Part shown: positions 30,004 to 51,369 of the stretch, piece by piece | Layout of the letters: each line of letters begins with the position of its first letter | Position numbering within the stretch: the stretch's first letter is position 1 | Notes under the pieces: generated by a model | Told to the model about the DNA's origin: nothing | The model's database searches: none | The model's input: the letters and a program-made list of their open reading frames with translations, nothing else | Source: Fragilariopsis cylindrus CCMP1102 | Lineage: Eukaryota; Bacillariophyta; Bacillariophyceae; Bacillariales; Bacillariaceae | Direction: 5' to 3' | NCBI GenBank assembly: GCA_900095095.1 | Contig: FMBT01000289.1 | Location: 868,001 to 932,000, forward strand | DNA: 64,000 nt | Position numbers and translations under genes: made by a program

Positions 30004-33000
30004 ATGCGGATTTTGTTACCTGTTTCCTTCTGGACCTTTCTGGTCATTGAACTTGGCGACTACTCGGATGCCTTTACTCCACCTAATCTGCAGAACATCT
30101 TCCGGACAGCACGTTCCCCTTCTGTGGGTATAATCAAAGACGACGATACTAATTATCACAATTATATTAATGATAGCCAACGTCTTTGGGCGACGACAAC
30201 AACAACAACAACAAAAGATGATTCTCCAACTCCAGATGATACCAGTCAAATCCGAGCTGCATATATGCAATGGTGTGAAAAATACCAAAAACCGACCGAC
30301 CGAAGTCGGTATCCACAGTTTGTTAATAATTACAAGGTAATGGAATCGATTGCTAGGAAGGGTGGAAAAGCGATGCACCTCAATGAATATGCCGACTTTA
30401 CCGGTGAAGAATTCCAAATAATGATGAATGAAAAAGAACAGCAAGTGCCGAAGAGAGTTATCGAAAAGGCACAGATTCAACGTAGTGAATCAATTGGTAG
30501 GGAAGAGTCATTTGGTCCTACCAGGACTCTAGTTCAGGCGGCAAAATTAATGGTAACGGAAAGGCAGCAACAAGAACGTGATAATAGAAATACAGAGCCG
30601 CAGTCGCAACCACAGCAACAGAAAGTACAACAAGATCCGATACCTTCACAAACCAAAGATAATGACTCAGAAAATGCAACAACAACAACACCATCTACTT
30701 CAACGAAAACGACAACAAAGCTAATAGATAACTCTGCAGTACCGAAGGATCAATTGCAAAGCACGGCGACTCCTCCTCCTCCCCCCGCAAAATCAGTATC
30801 GTTATCAAACGACGACGACAAATCAAAATCAACGAATGATGGTGTTGTTAAGCCAAGGGCAGCAGATGGAAATTTGAAAACAAATGATAAGAAAAAGGAC
30901 GTCGTCGAAACTAAGAATATTGCTTCATCTGCTTCGACAGGCAACAAGAAAACGGAGGAGGAAAGTGGAAAGCAAAAAAATGACCAAACGGAATCTAAAC
31001 CAACGAATATTTCGTCATCTACAACTCAGCAACTAACTGCACCTGGCGACTCTAATAAAAAAGACCGACCAGTAGAAAATAATTCTTCTTCGGTAACAAC
31101 ATCTCAAAGTCCTATTACTACTACTACGAAAGAAGAAAAGGCTACTAGCGAAGTTTTGTCATCAAAAGGAAAAGTGATATCGTCATTCGATTTGATGAAG
31201 GATAGATATACCAACAAAAAGGAACCCGAAGGAATAAAACCTAACGATGATAAAGCTAAAACAGAGGAAGTTGAAATAAGGAAACGAAACGAAGCCCAAT
31301 CCAAAGCCGACGAGGAACGTAAACGACTTGATGATGTTGCAGAAGCTAAAGCTGCTACTGACGAGGAACGTAAACGAATAGAGACACAGGCTAAAGCCGA
31401 TGCTGTAGCAAAAGCTAAGGCTGACGAGGAAAGGAGGCGAATCGAATCAGAAGCTAAATCTGTTGAAGAGGCACGGATACGAAACGAGTCAAAAGCAAAA
31501 GCTGCGGCCGATGCTTTGGAAAAAACTAAAGCCGACGACGAGAGAAAACGGCTTAAGGATGTTGCAAAAACCAAAGCTGACGAGGAAAGGAAACGGCTTG
31601 AGGCTGTTGCAAAAGCGGAGAAAGAAAGAAAAGCTGAAGAAGAACGAGAACGTATTGAAAAGGAGAAAGTTGAACTAATTGAACGTTTAGAAAAGGCAAG
31701 ACTTGAGAAGGAGGAACTTAGACGCGTTGAGCAATTACGGCTTGAAGCTGTTGCAAAAACTAAAGCAGAAGTAGAAGAATCAAAACGTCTTGAGGCTGTG
31801 GCAAAAGCTAAAGCTGAGGAGGAAAGGAAACGTCTTGAGGCTATTGCAAAGGCTAAGGCTGCTGACGAGGAAAAGAAACGACTTGAGGCTGTTGCAAAAG
31901 CTAAGGCTGCTGACGAGGAAAAGAAACGACTTGAGGCTGTTGCAAAAGCTAAGGCTGCTGACGAGGAAAAGAAACGACTTGAGGCTGTCGCAAAAGCAGA
32001 AGAAGAAAGACTAGCTGAAAAAGAACAAAAACAGCTTGAAGCTGTTGCAAAAGCTAAGGCTGCTGACGAGGAAAAGAAACGACTTGAGGCTGTCGCAAAA
32101 GCTAAGGCTGCTGACGAGGAAAAGAAACGACTTGAAGCTGTCGCAAAAGCTAAGGCTGCTGACGAGGAAAAGAAACGACTTGAGGCTGTCGCAAAAGCTA
32201 AGGCTGATGACGAGGAAAAGAAACGACTTGAGGCTGTTGCAAAAGCTAAGGCAGACGAGGAAAAGAAACGGCTTGAAGCAATTGCAAAAGAAAGAATAGC
32301 TGAAGAACGGAAACGGCTTGAGGCTATTGCAAAAGTCAAGGTAGAGGAAGAACGGAAACGGCTAGAGGCTATTGCAAAAGTCAAGGCAGAGGAAGAACGG
32401 AAACGGCTAGAGGCTATTGCAAAAGTCAAGGTAGAGGAAGAACGAAAACGGCTTGAAGCAATTGCAAAAGCAGAAAAAGAAAAGATAGCTGAAGAAGAAC
32501 GGAAACGGCTTGAGGCTATTGCAAAAGTCAAGGCAGAGGAAGAACGGAAACGGCTTGAGGCTGTTGCAAAAGTCAAGGTAGAGGAAGAACGAAAACAACT
32601 TGAAGCAATTGCAAGAGTAGAGAGAGAAAAAATAGCTGAAGAAGAACAGAAACGGCTTGAGGCTGTTGCAAAAGTCAAGGTAGAGGAAGAACAGAAGCGA
32701 CTTGAGGCTATTGCAAAAGTCAAGCAACTTGAATTGGAAGTCGCTCGAAAAGAAAAGGAACTTAAAACAAAAATTGTAGAAGCAGAAGCTAAACTCAAAC
32801 GTGAACTTGAATTGGAAGCTGCACGAAAAGAAAAAGTTAAACTAGAAGCTGAGGCTCAAGCAAAAATCGAGGCAGATGCCAAAAAGAAAGCAGAGGCGAA
32901 AGAAATAATACGATCAGAAGCTAAGGATGCGGCCGTGGCCGAGACGATACTGGAAAGACTCAGACGAAAATTGTTAGGTGCTCGATTGGTAGAACAAAAA

Positions 33001-35769
33001 AATGCCTCCGACAACATGCTGATAGAAGAAAATGGGAACATAGTTATAAAAGAAATAAATATGAAACCAAGCGACGACGACGACGATGGTGACGATGTAG
33101 AGATAAATATGGAAACAAGCGATGACGGTGACGATGATGACTCTGAGACTGTGGTTGAAGATTTTGAGAGAAATAACAACATAATAGATTCGGAGAATGT
33201 ACAAAAAGAGGAAATTGAAGAAGAATCTGAAGGAATAAGCGATGAAGAAAACCGGAAAAAAGAACTTGCCGAAATCGAGAAAACAGTCAAAGCAAAAGCA
33301 GAGGAGGCAGCAGCAGCAGAGGTAGCAGCAAAGAAAAGAGAGGAAGAGGAAGATTTGCGGGTTCGTGGTGCTTACCTTGACTGGTGTTTAGAATTTTCAA
33401 AGAAACCAGATAAGATTAGAATCAAGCAATTTAAAAATAATTATCTACTCCTTGAAGGGGTCGCTAAAGAGGAAGGAAAGGCAATCAAGCTTAATGAATA
33501 CGCAGATTTCACTGGCGCAGAATTCGAGAAAGAAATGCAAGCAAAGGAAGAAGCCAAGGAAAAGGAAAAACGAGAACGACTGAGGAAAGAACAGGAGGAA
33601 GTTGAGGCTGCATTCTCAGCAGCAGGTGGTGACGTCGGTGTTGAGGGTGAAAATGAAACAGCAGACGATTCATCGTCAGATGATGAAATTAAAGTTGAGG
33701 ATGAGGATGGTTTATTCCGTGTTCAAGATGAGAATGGAATTGACATAAGTAGAGGGAAAGGAGAAGATGACGACGTTCCACAACAGACTAAAGGAAAGGC
33801 ACTTGATACTGACACAGAAGAGGAGTGGTGGAAGCAAGAAGAGGGTTTAGACGAAAGTATGTTGCTAATGGACGACAACAGTAGCAGTAATAACTGGTCC
33901 GGGTCAAATGGAGGAAGAAACGAGAATCAGCCTACATTTACATCAGAACCAACTTATACCTCCAAAATCGACAACCAAGAACAAACGGAGACTAATGCCG
34001 ATGATCCTGAGGTGAGAAAAAGGGTGCGTGCTGCCTACTCAAACTGGTGTCGAACTTTCAGAAAAGAACCAGACGAAGGACGATTCCCCAAGTTCAAGAG
34101 CAATTATATCATCATGGAAAAACTAGCAAATGACCAAGGACGAGAAGTAACACTGAATGAATTTGCTGACTGCACTCCTGATGAATACGAAGCAGCATAC
34201 CGTGTAAAATCAGGAAGGAAAGAGCCGGAAGTAAAAATACCGTCGCCGAAGGTAGAAATTGTAGCCGAACCCAAGAGGGTTGTGCGTACCGCTACCACTA
34301 GAAGGACAGAAGCTGATGAAGAACACGATGAAGCTGCTGCGAATGCTGAGGTAGAAAAAATTGCTTTAGCTAGGGCAGAGGAAGCAGCGAAAAGGGTAGA
34401 AGAAATTCGGAAGGGTAAAATGAAATACGAAAATGCTAATACAAATACTGAATCAGAAAATAGGGTCGAAAAAGAGCGTCAAAAGGCTAGACAAGAGGAA
34501 GCAGCAAGGATTGAAGCACAGAGGATTGCTGTTGCAAAGGCTAATGCAAGGAAGGTCGAAGAGGAACGACTTCGAAGAGAATGGCAGGAAGCTCGAGCAG
34601 AAGGTAGAAAGGCAATCGCAGACGAGGAGCGATTGCGAAAGCAGCAGCAACAACAGAAAGTAGACGAAAACATCCCTGAAGTAGAGACGCAAAACGATTC
34701 ATACGATGGCCGTCAAAGCAGTGGAAGATATCCTGCATTCACTAGGGTAGATATGTCTCGATCAAGAAATGGCAATGATGATACAGCCACGTCACGATCG
34801 AATCTGAGTCCCGACGCAGACACACAGCCTGTCGTCAAGCCACCTCCATCAAAGCCAAAAAATCCATTTCAGCCACGACCGACGTTTACTTCTTCACTGA
34901 AGGATTCAATGAGATCTAGTACCAACGAAGAAGGAGGTTTCGGTGGGTATAGATCATCTTGGCGAGATCAAGCTAGACCAGATATTGATGACAACGATAA
35001 AAATAATGGAACAGCTTCTGAATCCGATTCGAAATACAGATCGCCGAATGACTTTATGGCGCCACCAAAGAGCGATGAAACCCCCCGTGAAGCATTCGAC
35101 AACAGATCATTCTTTCCAAAAAATTCGTCTAATCCTAGCCCTACTGTCCAAAAACCAGGATCTGGTTACTCCATGGATTCTCCGTCTACTAATAATGAAG
35201 AATTATCTGATTCTTCCTTCTCGTTAAACCAGGAATCGCAGTCCGAAAGCTGGTCCTCTCCAACCCAGGATCCACTAAAGCAACCTAGACCAATGCTCCA
35301 GGATCCTCCTTCAGGAGGAAATAATAACAACAACGGTGATTCGTGGTTTGGTAACAGCAACAGCAACAATGAAGTACAACCAAGTACAAGCGGAGTTCCT
35401 TCTGCAGATTCTTACTCACAGCGGGGGCCTTTATTGAATAAAGGTGCATCGTATCTTGAGAATTTATCTGCATCGCCCTCTACTGATAGGATCAACGGAG
35501 ACGATTCATATTCTAATGATGATACGTCTGGGGAACAATACTCTCAACAGCCAGATCCTCCGCCACAATCTGCATTTACAGAGCGTATCCAAGCTGCCTA
35601 TCGCGACTGGTGCCAATATTATGGCAAAGACTATAGTGAAGATCGTCTTCGCACCTTTTCTGCCAACTTTTTGGCTGTTGAAAAGTACCATCGAGAAACT
35701 GGTGTTTCATTGATCTTGAATGAATTGGCCGATATGACATCTGAAGAGTTTCAGAAAGGAAGGACGTAA
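30004..35769 (+). CDS. Cluster gene A: four I29-like domains and a long coiled coil
   Basis: Single exon, 1921 residues; the ATG at 30004 is chosen because the codon before it is GTG. A signal-peptide-like start (MRILLPVSFWTFLVIELG) is followed by SDAFTPP, an A-F plastid-type motif. I29-like (cathepsin propeptide) domains lie at residues of about 83-141, 1118-1180, 1337-1401 and 1859-1919, each of the form AY-x-x-WC-x-x-(F/Y)-x-K, then R-x-x-x-F-x-x-N(Y/F), then GK-x-x-x-LNE(Y/F)AD-x-T-x-EE(F/Y). No papain-type catalytic domain follows. Residues of about 427-989 form a very charged helix of 16-residue KKRLEAVAKAKAADEE-type repeats. The end is disordered and contains SYLENLS. In other organisms isolated I29 domains inhibit cathepsins; a scaffold role is an alternative. 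Confidence 0.85.
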   Translation: MRILLPVSFWTFLVIELGDYSDAFTPPNLQNIFRTARSPSVGIIKDDDTNYHNYINDSQRLWATTTTTTTKDDSPTPDDTSQIRAAYMQWCEKYQKPTDRSRYPQFVNNYKVMESIARKGGKAMHLNEYADFTGEEFQIMMNEKEQQVPKRVIEKAQIQRSESIGREESFGPTRTLVQAAKLMVTERQQQERDNRNTEPQSQPQQQKVQQDPIPSQTKDNDSENATTTTPSTSTKTTTKLIDNSAVPKDQLQSTATPPPPPAKSVSLSNDDDKSKSTNDGVVKPRAADGNLKTNDKKKDVVETKNIASSASTGNKKTEEESGKQKNDQTESKPTNISSSTTQQLTAPGDSNKKDRPVENNSSSVTTSQSPITTTTKEEKATSEVLSSKGKVISSFDLMKDRYTNKKEPEGIKPNDDKAKTEEVEIRKRNEAQSKADEERKRLDDVAEAKAATDEERKRIETQAKADAVAKAKADEERRRIESEAKSVEEARIRNESKAKAAADALEKTKADDERKRLKDVAKTKADEERKRLEAVAKAEKERKAEEERERIEKEKVELIERLEKARLEKEELRRVEQLRLEAVAKTKAEVEESKRLEAVAKAKAEEERKRLEAIAKAKAADEEKKRLEAVAKAKAADEEKKRLEAVAKAKAADEEKKRLEAVAKAEEERLAEKEQKQLEAVAKAKAADEEKKRLEAVAKAKAADEEKKRLEAVAKAKAADEEKKRLEAVAKAKADDEEKKRLEAVAKAKADEEKKRLEAIAKERIAEERKRLEAIAKVKVEEERKRLEAIAKVKAEEERKRLEAIAKVKVEEERKRLEAIAKAEKEKIAEEERKRLEAIAKVKAEEERKRLEAVAKVKVEEERKQLEAIARVEREKIAEEEQKRLEAVAKVKVEEEQKRLEAIAKVKQLELEVARKEKELKTKIVEAEAKLKRELELEAARKEKVKLEAEAQAKIEADAKKKAEAKEIIRSEAKDAAVAETILERLRRKLLGARLVEQKNASDNMLIEENGNIVIKEINMKPSDDDDDGDDVEINMETSDDGDDDDSETVVEDFERNNNIIDSENVQKEEIEEESEGISDEENRKKELAEIEKTVKAKAEEAAAAEVAAKKREEEEDLRVRGAYLDWCLEFSKKPDKIRIKQFKNNYLLLEGVAKEEGKAIKLNEYADFTGAEFEKEMQAKEEAKEKEKRERLRKEQEEVEAAFSAAGGDVGVEGENETADDSSSDDEIKVEDEDGLFRVQDENGIDISRGKGEDDDVPQQTKGKALDTDTEEEWWKQEEGLDESMLLMDDNSSSNNWSGSNGGRNENQPTFTSEPTYTSKIDNQEQTETNADDPEVRKRVRAAYSNWCRTFRKEPDEGRFPKFKSNYIIMEKLANDQGREVTLNEFADCTPDEYEAAYRVKSGRKEPEVKIPSPKVEIVAEPKRVVRTATTRRTEADEEHDEAAANAEVEKIALARAEEAAKRVEEIRKGKMKYENANTNTESENRVEKERQKARQEEAARIEAQRIAVAKANARKVEEERLRREWQEARAEGRKAIADEERLRKQQQQQKVDENIPEVETQNDSYDGRQSSGRYPAFTRVDMSRSRNGNDDTATSRSNLSPDADTQPVVKPPPSKPKNPFQPRPTFTSSLKDSMRSSTNEEGGFGGYRSSWRDQARPDIDDNDKNNGTASESDSKYRSPNDFMAPPKSDETPREAFDNRSFFPKNSSNPSPTVQKPGSGYSMDSPSTNNEELSDSSFSLNQESQSESWSSPTQDPLKQPRPMLQDPPSGGNNNNNGDSWFGNSNSNNEVQPSTSGVPSADSYSQRGPLLNKGASYLENLSASPSTDRINGDDSYSNDDTSGEQYSQQPDPPPQSAFTERIQAAYRDWCQYYGKDYSEDRLRTFSANFLAVEKYHRETGVSLILNELADMTSEEFQKGRT
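31284..32970 (+). repeat. 48-bp tandem repeats encoding a charged helix (gene A)
   Basis: Units of 48 bp encode KKRLEAVAKAKAADEE. They are nearly identical at about 31850-31990 and 32050-32240. Variant units (RLEAIAKVKAEEE) continue to about 32730. The near identity at DNA level implies recent unit duplication or homogenisation. Confidence 0.9.
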
Positions 35770-38566
35770 AAAAACTGAAGACGAAGGGAAGAATAAAAAA
35801 TAGGGAGAAGGGGACCGCCGAAAAAAAAGTACTACGAGTAGTTAAATGTTGTATTATTAGGGTAGTATGCGGTGTTATTTATTGTTCGCTACGTTTCCAA
35901 TATTTGTTTCTCAAGTGACTGCGACGAACTGATCAATTCACAGAATCATCAAATGCTGAATGTGTGATATATTTGTGTAAAAAAATGTAGTAAAAGATAA
36001 AATAGGGAAAGATTAACTTAGATACTGAAGTATTGGTGAATAAGAGATAATACCATTCATACTGGATTGACTTATATTACTATTACCGTGTTTAGCTAAT
36101 AATATTATTATCTATTTTTGACACATTTCACCTCTCTTATGACCTCCTCCTGGGTTGTGTAGAAATTTGGCTCTGTTTCGAGTCAACCTCCAGTAGCATA
36201 GAAAATCCCCCAACATACCAAAGCACACCACACAAAATTCCATGGAGAAATTAAGCACTACATGTAGATAGTCATAATTATATACATATACTATTGGTCT
36301 ACTACAATGTAGTAGTCCTGATAATGGAGATTCGTCCTGTAACAGCTTCCCATCATGGTCATGTGAACTTGTGCAGGAATGATAATTGGATCCTGTATTT
36401 TGTTATACATACTGTGTGTGTGTGAGTGTGAGTGAGTGAGCCACTCAAGACTGGACCCTCTGTGTTGGGGGGTAGGAAGATGAAAGTCAACTGATATCAT
36501 GCTTCCCCCCTCATCTTGTGGGCATACCTAAAGTCACAAGCTCCACAGAAGAAGGAGGTGATTCTGGTGTAGACTACATAGGGGAGATTAAATAGCTTTT
36601 TTTGATATTCATGGATGTGCTTTTCTTTATTGTGTGTCGTTACTGCTTCTTGTGTGCATTTTTTCAACGCTTCAAAACAGAAATCCATGCATGCTCCTCT
36701 ACTTTTCCCACACAACTCCATGCACCACTTGGAGGTGCATAGGTTGATGCAGCTTTGTACGCCCCTTCTTCAAGTGTAATATACACTAAAAAATATCCTG
36801 AACCAATGATTTTTGTTTTGTTCTTATACAGGAAGCAACAATCATTTCTCTTGTCACAAAAACATTGACCTTCCAATCTAAAATGCAACTACTACACTAT
36901 CATGATATCTGCCGCCGCTGCACAAGCAATTGACTCTCCTTATTGGAGGGAAGGTGGTAAGGGAGGTGATACTGATCCACCACAACTATTTCTGTTATCT
37001 ACTTTAACATTCAATGGTAACATGAAGTGCTGTCATCGTTGCAGAGTTAAACATTCCATTTCCTTCTGTCCCCAAGAAGGCCAGTAAAAATAAGAGTTGG
37101 TACTTGTAATTAAAATGTGACCGCCCTTTTTCTCTCCTGTTGAATAAAGATAGGATGGTACTTGATTAGATCATGGAGCTTGTTGAAGGATGAATGATTC
37201 ATGTGGTATTGAACACGACTCATCAAGGATTCCTGAACATGATCCTTTCTGTACATTGGCTTTCAATCCACGTACCTGTTAGCTTTTGCTGTTTGAAGAG
37301 ACAAGTATGTCATGGCTTCAATTACAAAGAAAACATCATAACTGTCAGCATTGTATTGCATAAAACGGAATGCATGTACCCTCCCCCATATATGATATAA
37401 GTCATCAAGCTCTTGTAGGAGATGCTTCCTTTTGTTCTTCTTGTCATAGTTGTTGTTGTTCATTTCATAAGTTTATGACTATAATTAGGTAGGAATTGGT
37501 TGGTTGTTTTAGGTGAAAAAATAGCACTAAAATTTGGTGGACATTTTGTATGTTTACTTTACATCTTTTGTATGCTTGTGATGTTGTATGAAAGGATTGA
37601 ATTATGTCTGCAGAAGTTATTAATTAAGAAGTCCTTCTTGCATACATATCATCTTCTATTACTTAGAAATGCGGACAACAAGAAGCTTCAAGTGCTTGTA
37701 CAGAAAAGAATAAAGAAATAGCACCTCAATTGGACAGACATTTTGTATTATAATGATCAGGTTTTTCTTTGTAATGCTGCTACAGTGCCAAAATTATCGG
37801 GGGTCATTTTTTAATATTTTGGGTCCGTTGAGGGGGGGGGGCAGGCTTAAAGAAACAAATACATGCAACTCACATTCAATTAGCTAAAAAAGCGGTTTTG
37901 TGCCTTAACTTTTAGTTCTACATGTAAGCACATGAAGGGCGTTAGACACACAAAGAACAATGTTTTCGTATTGGGCAAAAATCCATCATGCATGTTGTGA
38001 AACCCATATTCCAAAACCTATTTGATCTCCCCTGATGAATATGATTGATGTGAGCCTGCAATGTGTAACATAGAAACAACCATTTTTGTTGCTACTAGGA
38101 TTTGAGAGGGAGTCCACTACTAACTGGTACCAACTCTATATAATATCACATATTACATACTGTAGTATGTATTTTTCAATGATAGCATACCGTAGATCTC
38201 TCAATTTTTGATTTATGGTTGATCGATCCTACGACTAGCTCGACTAAGATGACGTAGAGTAAAATGAAGTTGAAGCGCGCAAAAACGCATCTACACGTGG
38301 AAACGAGCCAAAAAAGCAATCGATGGATGCATCCTCATGGCACGAAAATAAGAAGAACACTTTTTCACCACATCGAAGGATCCATGATCCATTCACTCTT
38401 GTGAGATGACGTAAGTGTACGTATTTGCAAATCTACATACTTTTTTTGCTAATAATACTAGTGAGCAAACAAATTAGAACAAAGAGATACCATTGTCTAT
38501 CTGTTCTTCCAAAAAAGGGACACACATCCTTGATTGTAAACAAACTTAATCTTCATCATCATTATC
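35770..38566. other. Long intergenic region with a CpG-depleted core
   Basis: 2.8 kb without a convincing gene. The first 330 bp and last 400 bp look like normal local DNA. About 36100-38160 is strikingly poor in CpG and rich in TG and CA, with many CATG words and a G-run at about 37830. Short open frames on both strands show no domain and overlap one another. It looks like decayed repetitive DNA; no element family can be named. Confidence 0.55.
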
Positions 38567-41500
38567 ATGAAGTTTTCGAATTTTGCCATCTTGTCCCTGG
38601 CAGGGTTAGAGAGAGCGCATCCAGTATATTCTTTTTTAAGTTCATCTCCTAATAATGTCGGTTCGAGTAGAACCGTTGGATCGCAATCACTTGGTGTACG
38701 TTCTTTGGCTATTGATATGACCACAGAAAAGAATACCGATGTTTCAATACCCTATGATTCCGCTGCCGAGCTAGCTTATTCCGGATGGATTGCCAAGTAT
38801 GAAAAACCATATGACGCTGAGCGTTATGAGGTCTTCTTGAGCAATTACAAGGCCATTACGATAATGAATGTTTCCGCCAAAAGGAAAGCCCGTGAAGATG
38901 ATGGAAGTAGTGAACCATCTCTCCTTTCGTTAAATAAATTCGCTGATTGTACGGCAGAAGAGTATAATGCGGCCAATAATGAAGAAAGTTCAGATGATTC
39001 AGTCGAAACCGAAGAAGAAGAAACTCCAAGCACATCGGGAGGTATTTTAGGAGATGCATTCAAGGCAGTTGAATCACAATCATCAGCCTCGTCGGCGTTA
39101 CAAGATGCTGCAGATGCATTGGATGAAGAAGAAAAGGTACGTTTACCAAGTCTTTAGAGTGAGAATGATGATTGTAATGATATATTGCTAAGGACTATAT
39201 CGATCCTATTTTTTGTGAAAAATTCTAATTCGTCTCACATTCCGTCGACTTTATATATATGTATGTATACATGATGACAACTGACAAAAATTAAATTAAT
39301 GATGAATAATAGAAATTGGCTAAACAATTAGGTTTAGACAGTGTAGAAGAATTAGAGAACGCAATCGATGCCCTTGAGGGGATTGGACCCGACGGAGTTG
39401 AAAATGAAAATTTGGCACGTGAGGCACGGGTTAGATCTGCCTATTTAGACTGGTGCAAAGAATTTGGAAAGACGTCTGATGAAACGCGATTTCCACAATT
39501 TTACGATAACTTTCTGGAAATGGAAGACTTCGCAAAGGATACTGGAAAGGAAATGGTCCTTAACGGATATGCTGACAATACGGAAGACGAATATAATACT
39601 ATGCTAAACGGTGGTGGTGAAGAGAAGGAGTTGGAGGTGGAAGAAAAGAAAGAGGAAGAGATTATAATCGAGGAAGTTGAAGAAATAGTAGAAGCAGTGG
39701 AAGCTGCTACTGAGACAGAAGAAGAAGGTGCTGCTGAGACAGTAGAAGAAGTTGCTGCTGAGACAGAAGAAGAAATTGCCGCTAAAGCAGAGCAAGAGGC
39801 TACTGCACAGGCCGCTTCCGAAAAAGAAGCTGCGAACAAAGCGGAAGAGTTTTTTAAGGAGGAAGCGATCAAAGCGAAACAAGAGGCTGCTGCTAAGATT
39901 ATAGCTGATAAAGAGGCTGCAATCAAAGAGGAAGAAGAGGCTGCTGCTAAGATTATAGCCGATAAAGAGACTGCGATCAATGCGGAACGAGCTGCTAATA
40001 TTAAGGCCGAAGAAGACAGGAAAAAATCATTCCAAGCGGAAACCGGTAAGTTTTTTTGGATGTTTGTTACTGTCTTTTTTGTTTGTTTGCTGAAAAAAGA
40101 ACTGCTATAAAATGGAAAACGTCACATGTTGGTTCCTTACACTTTTGATCTTACTTGTTGTATATGTAAATGCTTTTATCATGTGTTTGATATTATCTAG
40201 CTCGTGTCACTGCATTGACTGATGAAGAACGCCGAGCCGAAATTGAGAAGGAAAAATCGAACCGTCAAAGTTCTCAAGCTAAGGAACAACAAAAGGTCTT
40301 AGCGGCACGTGAAGCAGAAGTCATCGCTGCCGCTAGTGCGGCTGCAGATAAGGAAGCCAAAGAAATTGCGAAAGTTCGTAACATCCAAGAACAGGCTGCC
40401 GAAAAGGTTCGGGCAGAATCGAAGGAATGGGATGAAAACCAAGCCAGGCTCAAGGCAGATAAACTCGGAGCAGTAAGTCCAAAGGATGCCCCACCAATGA
40501 CTCGTTCACCGCCCAAGACTGTTGATGTCCCATCGCCAACGTCGAAATCGAAACCAGCAATCGATTTTGGTGGGTTTTTCTCAAAATTTAAAAATGAATC
40601 CAAGAAAAAGCCTGCCGCACCAGTTGTTAAGCCACCAGCACCAAAGAATAAGCCACCGGCACCCAAGACAGTTACTAAGACATCTACACTCGACTACAAT
40701 GGAGAGAGAGTTGGTGTTGCTAAGAAGACGTCACCGCCGCCACAGGTAGTAGCAGCAGCAAAGGTCGACTCCCCCACACCCAAGTCATCGCCACCCCGAC
40801 CTACATTCAGTTTGGCTTCATTGTTTGAAAAAAACGAAACACCAAAATCAAAGCCGCTGCCTCCAAAACCAAAGCCAGTGAAAGCTGCTGCACGAGCCAC
40901 AAAGTCAGTCGTGAAAGCCGCTGCTCCAAAAGCAAAGCCAGCTCCGAAACCAAAGAAAAGTGTTGCGAAGGCTACAACTCCAGAACCCAAAAAAGAAGAA
41001 GCTGTACGAGCAACATTGAGTTTAACATCATTCTTTGAACCAACACCTGCTGCACCAAAGAAGGCCGCTCCTGCACCTGCTCTTAAGAAGAAGGCAGCAC
41101 CTGCTCCTAAGAAGAAGGCACCCGTAAAATCCGTTGCTCCATCACCTGCTCTTAAGAAGAAAGCACCAGCACCAGCATTTTCCTTCTTTAACCCGGCACC
41201 AAAGAAACCCTCTGCTCCAGCTCCTGCGCCTGCACCTGTGAAGAAAGCAGTTCCAGCTCCGGCGTTTTCCTTCTTTAACCCGGCACCAAAGAAAACCCCT
41301 GCTCCAGCTCCTGCGCCTGCACCTGTGAAGAAAGCAGCTCCAGCTCCTGCATTTTCTTTCTTTAATCCGGCACCAAAGAAAACTCCAGCTCCTGCTCCAT
41401 CACCTGCTCCTGTGAAGAAAGCAGCACCAGCATTTTCATTTTTCAACCCGGCACCAAAGAAAACCCCAGCTCCTGCACCCGCACCTGTGAAGAAAGCAGC

Positions 41501-42008
41501 TCGATTTGGTTCGAAACCTGCTAAAGCTGCTGTTGCTACTAAATCAGCGGCACCGGTAAAATCGAAACCTAAGGGCCGTGCAACGCTCTCTTTGTTTGGA
41601 TCGAAGCCAGCAAAGGAAGTATCCAAACCCGAACCAGTTAAATCGAAGCCAAAGGCTGCTCGTCCATCACTCTCTTTGTTTGGGGGATCGAAACCAAAGG
41701 TAGAGCCTAAAACTGTCTCACCTCCAGAACCAAAGAAGCCCGCATTTTCTCTATTTGGCGGTGGTAAGAGCAAGCCGAAGCCTGCTCCCAAGAAGGCAGC
41801 CCCTCCTGCAAAGAAAGCACAGGTCCAAGATGCTATTCCTCAACTATCGAAATGGGCGCAAAATAGTGATGGATCCATCACTGGATTGGTAAGTAATTCA
41901 GACAACTTTCGATCTGGCACAAAAATCACAACATCCCCTGTAAGAAAGGGTGCTAAGCCTGGATCTGTTGTCAAAACTGGTTCAGGAAGTCAGTATAGAC
42001 TGAATTAG
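38567..42008 (+). CDS. Cluster gene B: two I29-like domains, Pro/Ala/Lys repeats and the shared C-terminal domain
   Basis: 1036 residues in three exons: 38567-39136, 39313-40045 and 40201-42008 (GT-AG; phases 0 and 1). The start is a weak signal peptide (MKFSNFAILSLAGL) ending near VYSFLSSS. I29-like copy 1 (about residues 59-137) has Trp without the adjoining Cys and a long loop before LNKFADCTAEEY. Copy 2 (about 223-287) is canonical (YLDWCKEFGK, LNGYADNTEDEY). Next come Glu/Ala-rich helices, then a Pro/Ala/Lys region with four copies of a 27-residue unit containing APAFSFFNPAPKK (41167-41500) and several RATLSLF-type motifs. The last 57 residues (IPQLSKWAQNSDGSITG to GSQYRL) form the domain shared with genes D and E. 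Confidence 0.85.
41167..41500 (+). repeat. Tandem 27-residue FSFFNPAPKK repeats (gene B)
   Basis: Four consecutive units of about 80 bp encode AFSFFNPAPKK followed by a Pro/Ala-rich spacer ending VKKA. The DNA sequence is also well conserved between units. Confidence 0.88.
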
Positions 42009-42774
42009 ATAATGTTTTACTTTAAGTTTCTCTTACAATGTATTCAATATATAATATTACAATTGTAGAATGGATTATCAAAATGTTAAACCATTGTACC
42101 ATGGTATCTTTATGACGTGTTTAGGATATATATAATATATGGATATATATATAATATCATCCGTCTATCATGCCGGCAAAACGTAGATTGGAGGGCATCC
42201 TGTGACCTTCTCTCTTACCAATAGAGGCTTCGACAGTCTCTTTCTTTGCGGATGAAGTTGCTATGTACTCGCAATCATGTTCAAGATACCATTTGATTTT
42301 GCGTTTATCTACTGTGAAAAAATCTTTATCTTTGGAAGCCAAGAGGTAAAGATCAATCTATCACTGCCGCCCACACCACAGAAAACAACGATGAAGTAGA
42401 ACTTAATGGTATGCAGGTTTGTCACCAAATAAGTCATCCAGTCATTGTTCTGTATAGACTTATGGTGATGGTGATGTTTTTTTAGGGCTGCTCCTTGTGG
42501 ACCAATTCGTTGCTATCAAAAAAAAATATTATTTGTCATCTATCATTTATCACACTGTATTTATTTTTATAAACTACGCTTTTCATTACTAAGTGAAAAG
42601 TATCAAATTTAAGGAAAAGACTAACTACCAATAATTGATCACTCATGGAAGGTATACATACGAAGTACTACTGTACTTCAAACTATCGTATATTAAAAAT
42701 TTCACAACCGAATTTTTCCATTCGTTTACTACATATTACAATAATTCCAGTTTACTAGTATTCAGTACTACCTA
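42009..42774. other. Intergenic between convergent genes B and C
   Basis: 766-bp spacer containing TATATA-rich DNA (42120-42160), a coding-like stretch of uncertain strand (42157-42540, see findings) and GTACTA palindromes near the end of gene C (42660-42781). Confidence 0.45.
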
Positions 42775-43629
42775 CTAGTACATGCTTCGTTGGTTCCCCT
42801 CGTCTTCCCATCCATTAGCAAGTCGATCGTTTAGAAGTCTTTTTTGTTCTTCTCTCAGTGCGAGTCGTTCGTTACAAACTTGCTCCTCGATAGCGGCATT
42901 TTGCAATAATTTTTTCTTTCCTTCAAATTGCTGCTTTAATTGTGCAAGTTCACTTTCTAAGCTTCTTCGTTCCTCCACGACGGATCGGAGTTGCGACGTT
43001 GCCCTGCTCAACTCTTCCCTACCCCTTCCAGAATTTCTACTGCTACTAGGATTGGCAGATGATGAGTTAATTATGGTATTTGATGGGTTCAATCCTACGT
43101 TAGTATTAGACTGAGTTGGATTTCTTCTTGCGCGACTTGTCCTAGTGGGGCTACTATTCATGCTCTTTGGACTATTATTGCTTTGTTGTGGTTGTGACAT
43201 CGCCTGTCGGTATTCTCCAGCAGAACAATCACCGTACTCATTCAGTTGAATGGGAGAGGGTGCCATTTGTCCGTTTTGACGTGCTCGATTACTTTCCATG
43301 TTGTTGCGGGCGGTAACTGCCAGGAAATTAGCCTTGAAATTTTGAGAACGAACAGGATCGAAATCGCCTCTAGAGTACTTTCGTCTCCACTTGGCATATT
43401 CTTCGCGTATAATTTCATCGTTTGGGGTCGGAGTGCGGCTTGATTTCATCACTACTAATTGATTATTGGGACTATTGCTATTTGCGTCAGTAGTATGGAA
43501 TGATGATGATGATGATGATGATGGATTGATCCGACACGAAAAACGGAGCGGCAATATGAAAGCATCAGAAGTCGACTTTCGCAAAATAGCTGCTACAGCA
43601 GCAAGGAAGAGGAGATTTAATGATTTCAT
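42775..43629 (-). CDS. Cluster gene C: short protein with one I29-like domain
   Basis: Single exon, 284 residues, on the opposite strand to the other cluster members. Signal peptide MKSLNLLFLAAVAAILRKS is followed by SDAFILPLRF, a plastid-type A-F motif, and a Ser-rich transit-like part. One I29-like domain (about residues 68-145) is of the second subtype: EEYAKWRRKY, then NFKANFLAV, a longer loop, and LNEYGDCSAGEY. A Ser/Asn/Arg-rich linker and a coiled coil (SLESELAQLKQQFEGKKKLL) finish the protein. It lacks the C-terminal DGxITG domain found in B, D and E. It is divergent from gene D with 552 bp between starts. Confidence 0.82.
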   Translation of the reverse strand: MKSLNLLFLAAVAAILRKSTSDAFILPLRFSCRINPSSSSSSSFHTTDANSNSPNNQLVVMKSSRTPTPNDEIIREEYAKWRRKYSRGDFDPVRSQNFKANFLAVTARNNMESNRARQNGQMAPSPIQLNEYGDCSAGEYRQAMSQPQQSNNSPKSMNSSPTRTSRARRNPTQSNTNVGLNPSNTIINSSSANPSSSRNSGRGREELSRATSQLRSVVEERRSLESELAQLKQQFEGKKKLLQNAAIEEQVCNERLALREEQKRLLNDRLANGWEDEGNQRSMY

Positions 43630-44181
43630 TTTCTTTAGTTGTTAAGAGGGGAGCGAGCGTTTAGCAGTATAGTATAGTGTCAAGAAGCAAAATGAACTCG
43701 TACGGTAATAGCTTTTGTGCTTTGGATGCAATCTTTCTTTCTTTTTTGTGTCGATTGTTGATGAAGATTGTTCGAATGTGAGTATGATACAATGCTAATA
43801 TTCTTTTTTTTTGATTGCAATTCATTCAAGATCGAAGGTCGAAAGCAAGAGGGTAACGAAGTTCATGTGCGTCCGTTGTACAGAGCTCCCCGGACGTACA
43901 GTAGCTTGTTCTTCTTATTTTTCGTCGTCCGTTATGCGCGCTAAAATAACGAACTTTTCATTTTTGCGCGGATGAAGTCAATTTTCATAAGGAAGATTCC
44001 GATCAACATTAAAAATGACGCATCAACGACCCATCAACGACAATCAAATAATAAAAAAATCCACCTTACTGTACACTGCACATAAAAGCTTATCGTGTTG
44101 AGAATGGAATACAGACAATAGAAGGCGATATTATTTATGCAAGTTGATTCATTCAATCAGTACTGATGTCGATGTAAAACT
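43630..44181. other. Divergent promoter region, cluster genes C / D
   Basis: 552-bp spacer shared by two cluster genes. It has CpG-rich patches (about 43886-43895 and 43935-43976, with GCGCGC and GCGCGGAT). No gene is recognised. Confidence 0.45.
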
Positions 44182-47100
44182 ATGAGAGTTTCAACCCTGG
44201 TAATCGTGACCCTTGTCGTCGTTTTAGCGATAACAACAGAACATGATGCATACTCGTTTGCATATCACATACCAAGCAGTTCGTCAAGACGACGATCCTT
44301 GCGGGAGCAAAGCGGTTCTTCAATATGTATGTACCAACGAAGTCGGAATAACATGTTTGTGACAGCTATAAGGTCTTCTGCAGGTGGTCAGGTAAATGGA
44401 AATGACAACAACAACAATAATAATGAAAATGAAAATTATTATATCAATGACAATGAAATTTTTCAAGCCTATTCCGAATGGCAGAAGGAATACAGAAATG
44501 GAGAAGGAGGAGACGACAGCTTTGATAATATTCGATTTCAAAACTTTAAAACCAACTTATTGAAATTAATCTCAGTCAATACTGACGAATTGAATAATGC
44601 ACGACAAAGTGGAAATCCGGATCCAATCCCAATGACTCTCAACGAATATGGAGACTACTCTGCCGACGAATTCACCGCGGGAACACAACAACAACCACAA
44701 CAACAACCACAACAACCACAACAACCACAACAACCACAACAACCACAACAACCACAACAACAACAATCACAACAACAACAACAACAATCTGCAGAATTTT
44801 CTCTAATGGGTGTCGAAGAACAAAACCGTATTCAACAAATATATATGGAATGGTGTTCTGTAAATGGAAAAATATATCAAGATTCTCGATTAGATATTTT
44901 TGCCTTTAATCTTTATGTCGTCGAAAATTATTGCCAGGAAACCGGTAAAAAGGTTGATCTTAATAAATATGCAGATTTATCACCAGAGGAATATGGAACA
45001 GATTCGTCAACCGCGAAGATAGGGGGTAGTTCCTACTTGGAAAATTTATCAATAAACACACAGACATCACCATCACCATCATCATCATCGTTATCATCAT
45101 CGTATCAATATCAATATCAATATCGGGATGAAGCAGAACGAGAGACAATTAGACAATCGTATATAGATTGGTGTACAGTCAATGATAGGGAGTACATTGA
45201 ATCTCGATTGGATGCTTTTGCCAACAACTTTTTAGCGATCGAAAGTTACCGTAAGGAAACGGGAAAAAACGTCAAGCTGAGTAAACATGCAGATTTGTCA
45301 CCAGAAGTATACAACGCAATGGAAGCAAGTACTCCTACTAGTGATGATACGCGAATAGCTAAGAATAATAGGAATACATACTTAGAGTCACTGAATACTC
45401 CGATGACAGGATATCCACCTGATGAAACATTAACAATAGCAGAAGAAACAATATGTGCTGTGTATCAGGATTGGTGCCAATACTACGGGAAAGTACCGAC
45501 CGAGGAGGGTCTTCATTATTTTACTGGTAGCTATAATGCCTTGGAGAAACACTATCGGGAGACCGGTGAAGAATTGACACTGAACGAAAATGCTGACTCG
45601 CCAGCGCCAGGAACAGACTCGGAATATCAACGAATACAATCAGCAGACAATCAAACAGTTTTAGACAATGCCAAGGTCCAGTTACTAGAAGAGGAGCAAA
45701 GAAAAGTAGAAGCCGCAAGATTAATAAAGGAAGAAAAAGAACGCTCAGAGCAGGCTCGTTGGGAATATGAGCAACAGGTAATACAAGAAAACGAACGACA
45801 AAGGTTAGAAGAAGATGTTCGATTGAAAAAAGAACAAGAAGAAAGAGAACGTATAAGATTCGAACAGGCTCAATTGAAAGAAGAAAGAATACGTGTTGAC
45901 AATGTTAGGTTAGTAGAGGAGGAACGACAGCAATATGCTGCAACTGTGGAAATGGAAAGAGATCGCCTGCGAGAGGAAAAGAATCGAGTTGAACTAGGTC
46001 TTCGCATTGATCGAGCCCGTTTAGAAGAAATGAAGCGTCTTGAAGAAGAGGCTAGAATTGAACTTGATAAGACCAATTCTCAACTTGATGAAACTTTACG
46101 GAATGACGAGTTACAATCCCCAACGATCGATGACGATGACGATAACGTCGAGAAAGCTGAGACGTTCTTTCTTCCACGTGGTTCATACATGAATGCTGTA
46201 GCGAAGACTTGGGTGGATCGTTCAGCCTATCTTGAGTCGTTACAACAAGGAAAGACTGGAGTTCTACCGGAAAATCCAGACATTAATCAACAGCCGATTG
46301 AGAAGTACAATCAAACAAGAACAAAACGACCCGAATCTCTTATCAATTCAATTTGGAACTTTATGAAAGACGATAGGAATGGGTTGGCCACAGAGCAGTA
46401 TTCAAACAATTTAATTCAACAGGCAGACAAAATGATTGCTGTAAGTGAAAATTATTCCTTAATAAATGATATTGTCACTGTAAAGTTTTCAATTTTTTCT
46501 CAATTATATTTTCTATTTATAACATAGGAGGCAAGCAAATTGAGCAGCATCGAAGAAGAGGAACTTCAGCATCTGAAAGTAGCTGTTGACGCTTTACGTC
46601 GTCGTAACGAGGACGATCAGGCGGCTGAACGAGCCAGAACAGAAACAAAAGAATGGGGGCAAATTCAAAAGGGACTCGAAAGAGAAGCTAAAAGAGCGAG
46701 AGAACGCCGAGAATCCGATGAGCGCATAGCAGAAGAAGCACGTCGGAAAGCACGTTCACTTAAATCTGAACGTAGTCGGTACGAAAAAAGTGCAGCTGAG
46801 AAGTCACGCGAAAGTGCTAATTTGAGACGACCAATTGAGCCTGCAGTCATTGGCGAAGACAATATAAACCAGGGAAATCCATTTCTCTTTTTTCCTAGTC
46901 CATTTCAATTCAGCGAAAGCGAAGATGCTTCAAATTCACCCGCAGCAAAGATGCAAGAAAACGTAATTTCGTTTTTTGGTAAAAGTAGTAATTCAGATAG
47001 AATAACACCACTTTCTAAGACGTCGACGCAACCAGTGGAAGTCGAGAAGAATGATAGCTGGCTTGTTAAATTATTCGACTTTTTTGGTCGTGAGAATGAG

Positions 47101-48030
47101 GAAGAAGAGATGCCAGGCCTCGGTACCATTACTCTTGAGCCAGCAAGAAGAACTTCGGTGTTTGACCTCTTCGTTACTCCCGACGCAATAGCACCTAGAG
47201 AACCTGGACGGGGAAGCATAACCATTGAAGATTCGCCGAAGCCTTCTATTTTTTCATCCTTTGCGAAGTTTGGTCTCTCACGGAATAAGGTTAAAACGAT
47301 AGACCCAGAGCGACAAAGAAAGGTGATGGATTACGAAAACAAGCTCCGATCAAGACAGGAGAAACTCTCGTGGTTCAAAGCCGGTCGCTCGCGAATTTTA
47401 GAACAAACGGATAAGAACATGAGCCGTAAGGAAGCCCGACGATTACAACGAGAATTAGATTCCCTCGCCGCTGGAAATTCTACCTCTTCGATCTTTACAT
47501 CAACAATTCCACAACTAGCCAAATGGACTCAAACTCCTGATGGTCGAATAACAGGGTGGATAAGCGAAACTGGTGGGCGCTACAAGATGGGAACGAAAAT
47601 TACAACGTCTCGAATAAAAGGGAAGGTGGTCAAACCAGGAATCACAGTCACCACCATATCCGGAAGTCAATATCGATTGGGTTTAAGTGCTGCTGCTGCG
47701 GGTAGTTCATTTGATTCATCAACAGACAGACGCTCAAAGTCTCAAAGACGCGCCAGTAATCAACGACCTTTACAACCCATTTCGCCCATGGGGGATTTAT
47801 TCGGACGTTTATTTACCGGGGAAGATGTCCCCAGTCTTGTAGAATGGACCCAAAACGAAGACGGTACACTTACCGGGTTTGTGAACAACAAAGATGGATT
47901 TGACGATGGAACTCAGATTACCACATCTCCTGTAAGGAAAGGTGCCAGTTCGGGAATGCTTGTGGAAACTGGAGGTGGTAGTAAGTACAAACTTATGAAG
48001 GAGAAGACCAGATATTCGATAGGACGATGA
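44182..48030 (+). CDS. Cluster gene D: four I29-like domains and two shared C-terminal domains
   Basis: 1253 residues in two exons: 44182-46440 and 46528-48030 (GT-AG, phase 0). Signal peptide MRVSTLVIVTLVVVLAITTE is followed by AYSFAYHIPSSSSRRR, a transit-like stretch. I29-like copies lie at about residues 90-167 (long-loop subtype, LNEYGDYSADEF), 211-271 (YMEWCSVNGK, LNKYADLSPEEY), 317-381 and 417-473 (the last with a degenerate end). Spacers hold (QQPQ)n repeats and the short motif YLE(N/S)L three times. A coiled coil (about 493-637) leads to a disordered part with FDFFG, GLGTITLEP and GRGSITIED motifs. Two copies of the C-terminal domain follow (about 1079-1139 and 1186-1243), both with W-x-Q-x-x-DG-x-(I/L)TG. 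Confidence 0.86.
44686..44790. repeat. CAACCA/CAACAA repeat encoding Gln/Pro
   Basis: Tandem CAACCACAA-type units in gene D encode PQQPQQ repeats and then poly-Gln, between I29-like copies 1 and 2. Confidence 0.9.
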
Positions 48031-48822
48031 TGGTCGATATAAACGAGAACACAGTATGTATCTATTATTTATAACACACAAATCATTTGCAACGCACATC
48101 AAGCCATGCCATTCCACGTTGTATCGATTTTTCCTGATTGGGAGTAATGCGAGAAAGTGTACATATACACACATGTATTACTAGTGGATTTTTTAGTTAG
48201 AATTGAGATTCTAAATAAAGAATACAAAGTTATTGCTTCCTTCAGCTAACGCTTAATTCGCACGCGAGGAATTATTACACAATAAAAGCGACTTGAACCC
48301 ATAAAATCTACCCACAAAATGCGAAATGTATTGAAAAAAATAAAAATAAGCTAAGATTTTAAGGGTTCAACGCGCTTTTATTGTGTAATAATCAATATAG
48401 CGCGTACGAATTAAGCGTTCGCTTGAGGAAGTAGTATACTACCGTAAGAGAAATTACAGTAGTAGGTACATATAGTATATACAGATCATACTAAGTTACT
48501 TTGTTTTTAATTCTAAATAAAAAGCGCGTTCTTTGTGACGTCAGCGTAATTTTTTTGAAAAAGCAATGCGTCTTTTATTGTTGCAATGATCAATTCAACA
48601 ATATCATATTGTGACAGTAATAGTAATAATAGATAACTTCTCCATCAATGAAACGCATTACGTTACGACGTACAATTGTAATAGATAAAAGTACAGTACA
48701 AGAAGTACATGTTCTGATACATGCAACAACCTGTTCGACGTCACTGTTAACGCAATAAGGTTCCGAGTGTAGATTTTTACCACTTCGAAAAATTCTCTTA
48801 ATTTCACCCTGTTCCTTTCAGC
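48031..48822. other. Intergenic between genes D and E with inverted repeats
   Basis: 792-bp spacer. A long-armed inverted repeat (48235-48432) and a second, weaker one (about 48535-48680) occupy half of it. No coding sequence is recognised. Confidence 0.5.
48235..48432. mobile_element. MITE-like element with ~70-bp terminal inverted repeats
   Basis: The left arm (about 48235-48300) and right arm (about 48363-48432) are reverse complements over some 65-70 bp with few mismatches and one small indel. Shared blocks include AACGCTTAATTCG, ATTATTACACAATAAAAGCG and TTGAACCC. The 60-bp centre is AT-rich and non-coding. Size and structure fit a non-autonomous DNA transposon (MITE). The target-site duplication is not clear, so family and exact ends are open. 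Confidence 0.72.
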
Positions 48823-50911
48823 ATGAAGATGTATCCTTCCGCATTAGATGTTGTCCTCGCGACTTTTCTAGTTGTGAGATCAACTACTACAGCATTTGTT
48901 CCAAATTCTTGCATAACTACCAACGAACATAGTTTTTCGTCGAATACTTATATAACAAACGAACAATTGCATGTACCAACAGTATGCTTTGCAAACAGTG
49001 TCGATGTCGGTGATGATTCTTCTTCTTCGTCGTCGTCGTTTCCTTATGATGATGGAGCTATTCGGTATGCATACGATGAATGGCGTTTGATTTATGGAAA
49101 AGGTGATTTCGATTCAGATCGTTTTGAAAATTTTACAGCAAATCATCGAACGTTAATAAATGCCAACATAAAAGCTCGAGAAAATGCTGTCCAACAGGGT
49201 ATAACAACATTACCTCAATGGATGAGTTTGAACGAATACGGTGATTATTCCTTGGACGAATATGAAACGATGCTTGTTCAAGGAAATCAAGAAAGTAACG
49301 ATGATATGAATTACTCAAACAACAACAACAACAACAATCAAAATATGAATTACGATGGAGAACAGCAGGATCAATACGGTCGTCCAATACGTTCTACGCA
49401 AGTAATTCAGCAACAGCAGCAACAACAACTAGATCGCTCCACGCAAGTGATTCAAAGTAGTGACCAGCAGCAGCAACAATTCACAAGCAATTATAATAAT
49501 GGTCGTTACAACCCAATGAAACAAGCCGTTTTGTCAATAGAGGATGATTCGAATGATACAAACGACGATGCTAATAACGGTCGAGGTACTGTTGTGATTG
49601 AAGAACCCACCAATGATCAATCCTTAGATGACGGTAGTGTAGGTAGTAATACTGGAAGAGGGACACATGTTATCAAGTCAATGGAAACAGGAGACTCTTC
49701 TCTATCCGATACGGGGTACGGTACACAAGTCATTGGATCATCAAGTGAATCAGCAACTTATGGTACACAGGTCATACAGGAGGTGAATAATAATTTTGGC
49801 ACTCAAGTAGTCAGTGGATTTGATAACGTAAATGGGTCATCATCCACATTTGGTACGCAAGTTATCCAGCAATCCGACTCGTCACTATCCACGCCGCCGT
49901 CAACCGATGGTCGTAGTAGAACGCAAGTAATCAAGTCAATGGATCAGGAGGGATCATCGACCTTACTTTCTGGTACCCGTGTTATTCAGCCTACGTCAAC
50001 CGAAGGGTCACAGAATAATAGTAAGAAAGATGATAGAGGCACTTTAGTCGTTAGCAAGGATGATAAAGAAACTTGGACTAATCTCCTCGACAAGCTGCCA
50101 TTATTTGGTGGTGGAAACAACGTTGACGACTCTGAAGACAACGACAACGACAATGTTGCGAGGGGAACTAGAGGGACAATAGTTATCAAAAGGAAAATTC
50201 CTGAACCGAAAAATACAAAAAGTCTCTTCGATTTTTTCAGTACTAACACAGACGAAGAGGATCAGATTATTGAACAAGTGAAAGATGTAATAGAGGAGTC
50301 TATTCCGGAATCTGAACCATCAGCAAACAACTTTCTGATGAACTTTATTAGTCCTAATAAATCGAAAGATAAAGATGATGATTCAACGTCTGAGGTAACG
50401 CAGCCAATCAGCATTGAGACGGCAGATTCAGGAACAAAAAATCAGTCTAATGATATATTCTCCTTTTTCGGTGGAAAATTAAAAAGTGAAAACTCACGAT
50501 CCGTTCGGACTACGATTTCCTTGCAAAAGAACACCAAAGATAAAGTAGAAAAAGTACCACCTAGTAGTACTAAAAAGCTCCGAAAAACGGAACTTATACC
50601 AAAGAAACAAAATGAAAATGGTATGCCGTCCATCCTTTCGTTTTTTGGTGGTGCAAAAAAGGTCACCAAGGACGGAACTTCTTCTCGGGATCCAAACAAT
50701 GCTCGTTCTACATTAACTGTGAACAACCCATCTCAAATACCTAAGAAGAAAACTTCTAGTCAAATATGGTCTCCTTTTTCGGCGAAAAAGAAAATCAAGG
50801 ACGACGAAACTTCGACAACTGTCAGCGAGGAATCGAGTCCTTCCGTCGTGAAGGTACGTAGTACAGTGAGAGCTGAGTATTGCTTTTTTGAATTATCAAT
50901 TCCTAACCCTT

Positions 50912-50947
<36 letters not shown>

Positions 50948-51369
50948 AGAACGACGTTATTAAGGCCCGTATCGCCAGATCAAGAAAGGGGGTCGAGATG
51001 GCAGCCAAGAAAAAGGCTGAAGTAGAACAGGAGAGAGAGACTAGAAGGCAAGAGCAGCTGCAGAAAAGGCTTGAAGCGACCCGTAAGAGAGAGGCACAGG
51101 CACGACAGGGGACCAAATCGGTAACAACGACCAAGTCGCCACCCAGTATCAGTTCACCGTTTTCAATTTTCGGTGGAAATAGACGGCAACAGCAGGTGCC
51201 AGAAGTGAAGAAATGGAAACAGAATAAAGACGGGTCGATCTCAGGCCTGATATTTAATTCAAAGAGCTTACAAGACGGTACAAGAGTGACTACTTCGCCT
51301 GTACCAAAAGGTGCTAAAAAAGGAACTGTTGTAAAAACTGCTGCTGGCACAAATTATTCTCTCATGTAG
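48823..51369 (+). CDS. Cluster gene E: one I29-like domain, GTQVI motif array and shared C-terminal domain
   Basis: 816 residues in two exons: 48823-50853 and 50950-51369 (GT-AG, phase 0). The start is hydrophobic (MYPSALDVVLATFLVVRS) followed by TTTAFVPNS, an A-F plastid-type motif. One I29-like domain of the long-loop subtype (about residues 73-151) has YDEWRLIYGKGDF and LNEYGDYSLDEY. Residues of about 189-456 carry some twelve copies of a short motif (G/S)T-x-V(I/V), such as YGTQVIQ, GRGTHVIKS and RGTIVIKR, in Ser/Asp-rich spacers. Next come SLFDFFS, DIFSFFGGKLKS and SILSFFGGAKK motifs. The second exon encodes a basic helix and the C-terminal domain (VPEVKKWKQNKDGSISG to NYSL). The intron ends with a GT repeat before the acceptor. 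Confidence 0.86.
50915..50945. repeat. GT dinucleotide repeat at an intron 3' end (gene E)
   Basis: About 14 GT units end four bases before the acceptor AG, in place of a normal polypyrimidine tract. Confidence 0.9.

Follow-up and report, generated by a model that had tools for sequence, protein, structure and literature searches.

A five-gene cluster of protease-free I29 proteins in Fragilariopsis cylindrus, candidate plastid scaffold proteins of an ancient diatom family

A cluster of five adjacent genes was analysed in a 64,000-nucleotide window of the diatom Fragilariopsis cylindrus CCMP1102 (assembly GCA_900095095.1, contig FMBT01000289.1, positions 868,001 to 932,000). All coordinates below are positions within this window, on the forward strand. 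The genes, named A to E, occupy 30004-51369; C lies on the minus strand, the others on the plus strand. Together they encode twelve copies of a module resembling I29 (PF08246), the prosegment domain of papain-type proteases. The original prediction had described five adjacent genes with twelve I29-like copies, and the gene models and the copy count agree with it. B, D and E read as complete proteins after removal of short GT-AG introns. The proteins are probably members of an ancient diatom family of nuclear-encoded, stromal, multivalent plastid scaffold proteins, in which the I29 fold would have been exapted as a binding bead. The gene models are listed here (aa, amino acids; GSY, a C-terminal domain described below):

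30004-35769, plus strand: gene A, single exon, 1921 aa; ASAFAP-like presequence, four I29 copies, a 578-residue ER/K-rich stretch, without GSY
38567-42008, plus strand: gene B, 1036 aa, exons 38567-39136, 39313-40045 and 40201-42008; two I29 copies, a helical-looking region, a basic tail rich in P, A and K that carries FSFF and SLFGG motifs, one GSY
42775-43629, minus strand: gene C, 284 aa; one long-type I29 copy, a tail that looks helical by eye, without GSY
44182-48030, plus strand: gene D, 1253 aa, exons 44182-46440 and 46528-48030; four I29 copies, two GSY
48823-51369, plus strand: gene E, 816 aa, exons 48823-50853 and 50950-51369; one I29 copy, GT-beta repeats, one GSY

The copies (four in A, two in B, one in C, four in D and one in E) are of two types: a short one, nearly always with a cysteine after the core tryptophan (WC), and a long one with an insert upstream of the LNEYGD-like end, represented by the first copies of B, C, D and E. 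Their positions and the basis of their assignment are:

30244-30429, plus strand: A1, family profile and motif
33355-33540, plus strand: A2, family profile and motif
34018-34200, plus strand: A3, family profile and motif
35578-35763, plus strand: A4, core identity 0.83, the highest of the ten copy groups compared (three sequences)
38759-38980, plus strand: B1 (long type), Pfam scan and family profile
39424-39609, plus strand: B2 (short, WC type), family profile
43198-43419, minus strand: C1 (long type), family profile; below the Pfam cut-off (14.7 bits)
44449-44685, plus strand: D1 (long type), family profile and structure model
44821-45006, plus strand: D2, family profile and structure model
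45139-45324, plus strand: D3, family profile and structure model
45442-45630, plus strand: D4, degenerate LNEYAD end, two helices in the model, no proenzyme row aligned
49054-49275, plus strand: E1 (long type), family profile; no Pfam I29 match at E <= 1

Eight open frames were scanned with Pfam, where the curated cut-off for I29 is 24.4 bits. Matches above it were obtained in A (44 bits), B exon 1 (27.2) and D exon 1 (34.5); gene C was sub-threshold (14.7 bits, E 0.039), and neither the E frame nor the B frame that starts inside copy B2 gave a match at E <= 1. Against PF08246 the predicted identity therefore stands for A, B and D and fails for C and E taken individually, which were assigned by conserved residues and by the family profile, where they score 72.5 and 70.9 bits, both being in its training set. 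PF08246 also matches 11 of 12 B-type homologues at E <= 0.001. When the profile of all twelve copies was compared with the PDB, the best match was to papain-type prosegments (E 3.8e-9), and the 20 rows at E <= 0.1 consisted of 19 papain-type prosegments, proenzymes or crammer plus one unrelated GH16 hydrolase. In an AlphaFold model of the four-copy part of gene D, the I29 modules sit on disordered linkers; compared with the PDB by VIA-align on a Foldseek shortlist, the best 23 rows were all papain-type proenzymes, propeptides or crammer, the outcome expected of a procathepsin propeptide fold. By sequence profile and by modelled fold the modules are I29, as had been proposed. The WC cysteine is found in 98 of 102 short-type copies and 7 of 39 long-type ones; four of the five cysteines in the 1921 residues of gene A, and three of six in gene D, are of this kind, and the residue is, judged from these alignments, specific to the family.

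No peptidase accompanies these modules in any of the five genes, as had been noted at the outset. A genome search returned 36 Peptidase_C1 matches, none within the window; the nearest on this contig (C265:475819-476802) lies about 390 kilobases away, and standard frames with I29 plus protease are present elsewhere in the genome (L002, L004). Fifty-three homologues were collected in three protein searches (word filter, length window, candidate cap), so that homologue numbers are lower bounds; their precomputed Pfam annotation contained no peptidase in any, and relatives carrying a protease domain, which would have spoken against the proposal, were thus absent from the 53 searched. Three I29 frames outside the cluster, L030 (C90), L038 (C134) and L039 (C760), also carry no protease in the part seen, and each has an A/G-F/Y pair close to the signal-peptide end.

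In stromal proteins of diatoms, according to sections of PMC4329603, position +1 after the signal peptide is F, or less commonly W, Y or L, and a stretch low in acids comes next. Presequences were compared in 61 peptidase-free proteins (the five genes, 53 homologues and three stand-alone loci), of which 41 passed a hydrophobic-core cut; several of the other 20 look truncated. Each of the five proteins begins with a hydrophobic segment, after which comes [AS]-F. After the signal core, a loose motif, [ASGC][FY], occurred in 41/41 proteins (17.8 expected) and a strict one, [AS]F..P, in 31/41 (2.2 expected, at most 8 in 1000 shuffles), mostly with few acids downstream and in none of three protease controls; examples are SDA-FTPP (A), SDA-FILP (C), ASA-FLPP (P0046) and AGA-FAPT (P0016). 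The proteins are probably sent to the chloroplast, where the motif alone would point to the stroma. The original prediction of a targeting peptide, plastidial or secretory, thus holds as to its presence in all five genes and narrows to the plastid type, with secretion disfavoured.

Beyond the beads, the proteins contain further elements; the GSY domains and the repeated aromatic motifs were absent from the earlier description of the locus:

31243-32976, plus strand: charged stretch of gene A, 578 residues without proline or glycine, i/i+4 salt-bridge density 0.26 per residue
41178-41759, plus strand: sticker region of gene B, holding the majority of its FSFF and SLFGG motifs
41829-42005, plus strand: GSY of B, modelled with five strands, pLDDT 91.9
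46168-46293, plus strand: conserved segment of gene D, SYMNAVAKTWVDRSAYLESLQ, one match in this genome
47500-47682, plus strand: GSY D-1
47821-47997, plus strand: GSY D-2
49393-50187, plus strand: repeat region of gene E, holding 11 of the protein's 12 short GTQVI-like motifs
51190-51366, plus strand: GSY of E

The charged stretch of gene A is rich in i/i+4 E-K/R pairs and could form a very long single helix. The tail of gene B holds five FSFF and eight SLFGG motifs (0.2 expected for each), that of gene E twelve GTQVI-like motifs (0.4 expected), numbers that none of 500 shuffles reached in either case; the FSFF/SLFGG excess recurs in all five B homologues tested. The tails of B and of five homologues are basic (isoelectric point, pI, 9.8-10.3) and those of A, D and E acidic (5.2-5.9). 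Beads lie 101, 106 and 124 residues apart in D, 163 in B and 221-1037 in A, C and E having one bead each, and four FSFF motifs of B are spaced at 27-29 residues. No second copy of the D segment SYMNAVAKTWVDRSAYLESLQ was found in this genome. Among the 58 family proteins, 15 have a SYL[DE]NL-like motif; they are exclusively of A or D type, and the motif is often close to I29 modules (for example in gene D, 44182-46440).

GSY is an all-beta domain of 60 residues without a Pfam entry, present once in B, twice in D and once in E. Outside the cluster it matches 19 places in the genome (three at E above 0.05; some are haplotype pairs), on C352/C41, C608/C574, C40, C68/C618, C554, C164/C285, C324 and C66 (L011-L028), in one to several copies, alone or with coiled-coil-like stretches. 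Some of these proteins have plastid-like N-termini, and those of the single-GSY proteins resemble the cluster's by eye (L026, VDAF-TSP). The GSY profile gave nothing credible against the PDB, and an NCBIfam scan of five sequences yielded a single YraN match, far below the cut-off. Identification with the SANTA domain (M18BP1) was not adopted; there was one SANTA-model match only, in L046, which we take to resemble nicotinate phosphoribosyltransferase.

The named homologues are all diatoms, pennate and centric. Gene D has at least 14 long ones (1040-1340 aa), one of them from Nitzschia inconspicua, and gene A at least three (P0050-P0052); those of gene B include proteins of Mayamaea, Amphora, Entomoneis, Amphiprora, Cyclotella cryptica and Stephanocyclus meneghinianus. 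A tree was built from 68 modules on only 69 columns. In it, D2, D4, A2, A3 and A4 each form a well-supported position group across species, and recent tandem duplication was rejected on this ground. D2 and D3 form a joint supported group, in which D3 itself is not separated; the D1 (88/90) and B1 (87/90) groups are weaker, B2 copies scatter among A copies, A1 stands apart on a long branch, and the protease sequence L001 falls inside the tree, also on a long branch. The paralogues are old: several copies fall together with their positional counterparts from other species, and B-type genes are present in centric as well as pennate diatoms. The description of the cluster as locally duplicated is accordingly misleading: several copies are orthologous by position, and the genes belong, as far as these comparisons reach, to an ancient diatom family.

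Other features of the locus were recorded alongside. Between D and E (48231-48436) lie nested inverted repeats, with inner arms of 39 nucleotides (92% complementary, 44 nucleotides apart) and outer arms of 36 nucleotides (83%), resembling a small mobile-element remnant or stem, and the intron of gene E has a (TG)n run at 50914-50943, directly upstream of the splice acceptor. The neighbouring gene at 27042-29027 (minus strand) presumably encodes a relative of splicing factor SF3a subunit 3. Since near-duplicate matches occur on separate contigs (for example C139/C287, C438/C540, C68/C618), the assembly suggests that two haplotypes were assembled separately in this genome.

In the explanation preferred here, the protease-free I29 fold would have been put to a new use as a protein-binding bead for a stromal client, repeated and folding on its own. 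Disordered linkers (D) or the long charged, probably helical stretch (A) would set spacing and reach, GSY (B, D, E) and aromatic or strand-like stickers (B, E) would add valency, and the resulting scaffold proteins would cross-link a stromal assembly. We infer both the binding role and the scaffold or condensate function of these putative beads from sequence, and the idea of I29-like modules as binding units, already part of the original prediction, fits. Since the WC cysteine is kept in beads of a presumed stromal protein, its thiol may act as a redox switch. Extended further, the propeptide fold would have been captured as a redox-sensitive bead of a dedicated diatom plastid scaffold, whose I29, GSY and sticker arms would build a stromal condensate specific to diatoms, plausibly the matrix of the pyrenoid in species without PYCO1; this version is tentative and on balance doubtful.

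Several observations weigh against the scaffold explanation. The presequence test is our own motif count rather than SignalP or ASAFind. Its loose motif is unspecific, [AS]F being found also in the protease controls L004 (followed by six acids) and L001 (in a later hydrophobic stretch), and the strict motif fails in 10 of 41 proteins (P0004, P0008, P0011, P0012, P0014, P0015, P0022, L030, L038, L039); the net charge after the motif is -1 in gene E, P0051 and L038. FSFF and SLFGG are practically missing from A and its homologue P0051, and gene D is weak in stickers (no FSFF, two SLFGG; its Nitzschia homologue P0012 has three of each). Neither Phaeodactylum nor Thalassiosira pseudonana was among the named matches listed in the three protein searches. 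The diatom linker motifs KWSP, [AS]EWxSM and GTGYNP occur in none of the 58 family proteins.

Sections of PMC10288592 attribute to diatoms as much as 20% of the CO2 fixed globally, place their Rubisco in the pyrenoid and describe PYCO1 as the linker of the Phaeodactylum pyrenoid, with no homologue found by that study in other species. Because of this lack of a homologue, and because the layout partly fits, Rubisco and the pyrenoid are the leading candidate client and site, putative as they are. In the sections of PMC11570498 used here, condensate linkers are characterised by disorder and by repeated elements 20-120 residues apart; two of the three D intervals and the FSFF spacing of B fall inside this range, the bead spacings of A and B outside, so that the apparent match is partial, best in B and D and without fit in A or C. 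Together with the basic B-type tails, which recall PYCO1 (PMC10288592, in part), these spacings favour the view that the proteins are pyrenoid matrix or linker proteins proper, with beads, stickers or both binding Rubisco or tying it to membranes or shell, and so taking in other diatoms the role that PYCO1 has in Phaeodactylum. The Rubisco-binding and tyrosine motifs of PYCO1 are missing from all 58 proteins, however, and the acidic tails of A, D and E also argue against this view, which we consider unlikely.

Secreted or vacuolar multi-headed inhibitors, each bead blocking a papain-type protease in the manner of CTLA-2, crammer, BCPI or salarin, would account for I29 membership by profile and fold, and papain-type proteases are encoded in this genome. 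Inhibitors with I29 and no protease domain do exist; sections of PMC4089206 describe, for CTLA-2alpha, crammer and BCPI, potency residues (C75, G73, L77-R80) that lie where the core ends or past that point, contact the protease cleft and are not identical in each. Over ten orthologous copy groups (three sequences each for A1-A4), identity was 54-83% in the core against 20-51% in the next 25 residues, the highest post-core values being those of A2 (0.51), A4 (0.50, over few residues) and D2 (0.47). Gene A stops 5 residues past the EEF of its last module, A4, and its three homologues stop 7, 9 and 9 residues past theirs, which leaves room for no more than the beginning of a cleft segment. Low post-core conservation is not decisive, since known I29 inhibitors differ in the residues used (PMC4089206, in part), and the plastid-like presequences weigh more heavily against inhibition; long helices, stickers and GSY domains would moreover be superfluous for inhibition. 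Because the address appears plastidial and most of the cleft-entering stretch lacks conservation, with hardly any of it present after A4, the proteins are probably not protease inhibitors, and this alternative is rated quite improbable. A structural role in the cell wall, in silica or elsewhere on the secretory route would be compatible with the signal peptide, the long, repetitive, disordered-looking regions and the acidic stretches. The strict ASAFAP-like motif, present in 31 N-termini where 2.2 were expected and mostly followed by few acids, speaks against it, as do the similar N-termini of single-GSY proteins elsewhere; it is very improbable.

A plastid-addressed multivalent family common to several diatoms offers concrete genes for study, and GSY adds an uncharacterised beta-domain family that is wider than the cluster. 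Among the papers listed, the literature search showed no I29 protein in diatom plastids or pyrenoids and, for I29, mentions in oomycetes, two 2024 Cell papers on the diatom pyrenoid lying outside its scope. With papain-type prosegments (PF08246) the modules share the profile match, the helical fold and the R...F..N and LNxxxD layout; they differ in the missing protease, the plastid-type presequence, the multiple copies (A, B, D) and the WC cysteine of the short type. CTLA-2alpha, crammer, BCPI and salarin likewise have I29 without a protease domain (PMC4089206, in part). Crammer turns up in both the sequence and the structure match lists of the cluster modules. Salarin is multi-domain. In contrast to these stand-alone inhibitors, the cleft-contact stretch is mostly unconserved in the cluster, and four of the five proteins are 816-1921 aa long and include helical, disordered or GSY regions. 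PYCO1, EPYC1 and CsLinker resemble the cluster in plastid layout, disorder and repeated elements (sections of PMC10288592 and PMC11570498); unlike PYCO1, the cluster lacks PYCO1 motifs and would rely on folded I29 beads in place of short helical stickers. In the cluster a known domain family appears at a new location and in a new architecture. If the scaffold explanation is true, it is a clear example of a protease-propeptide fold that gave up the control of proteases and became part of organelle construction.
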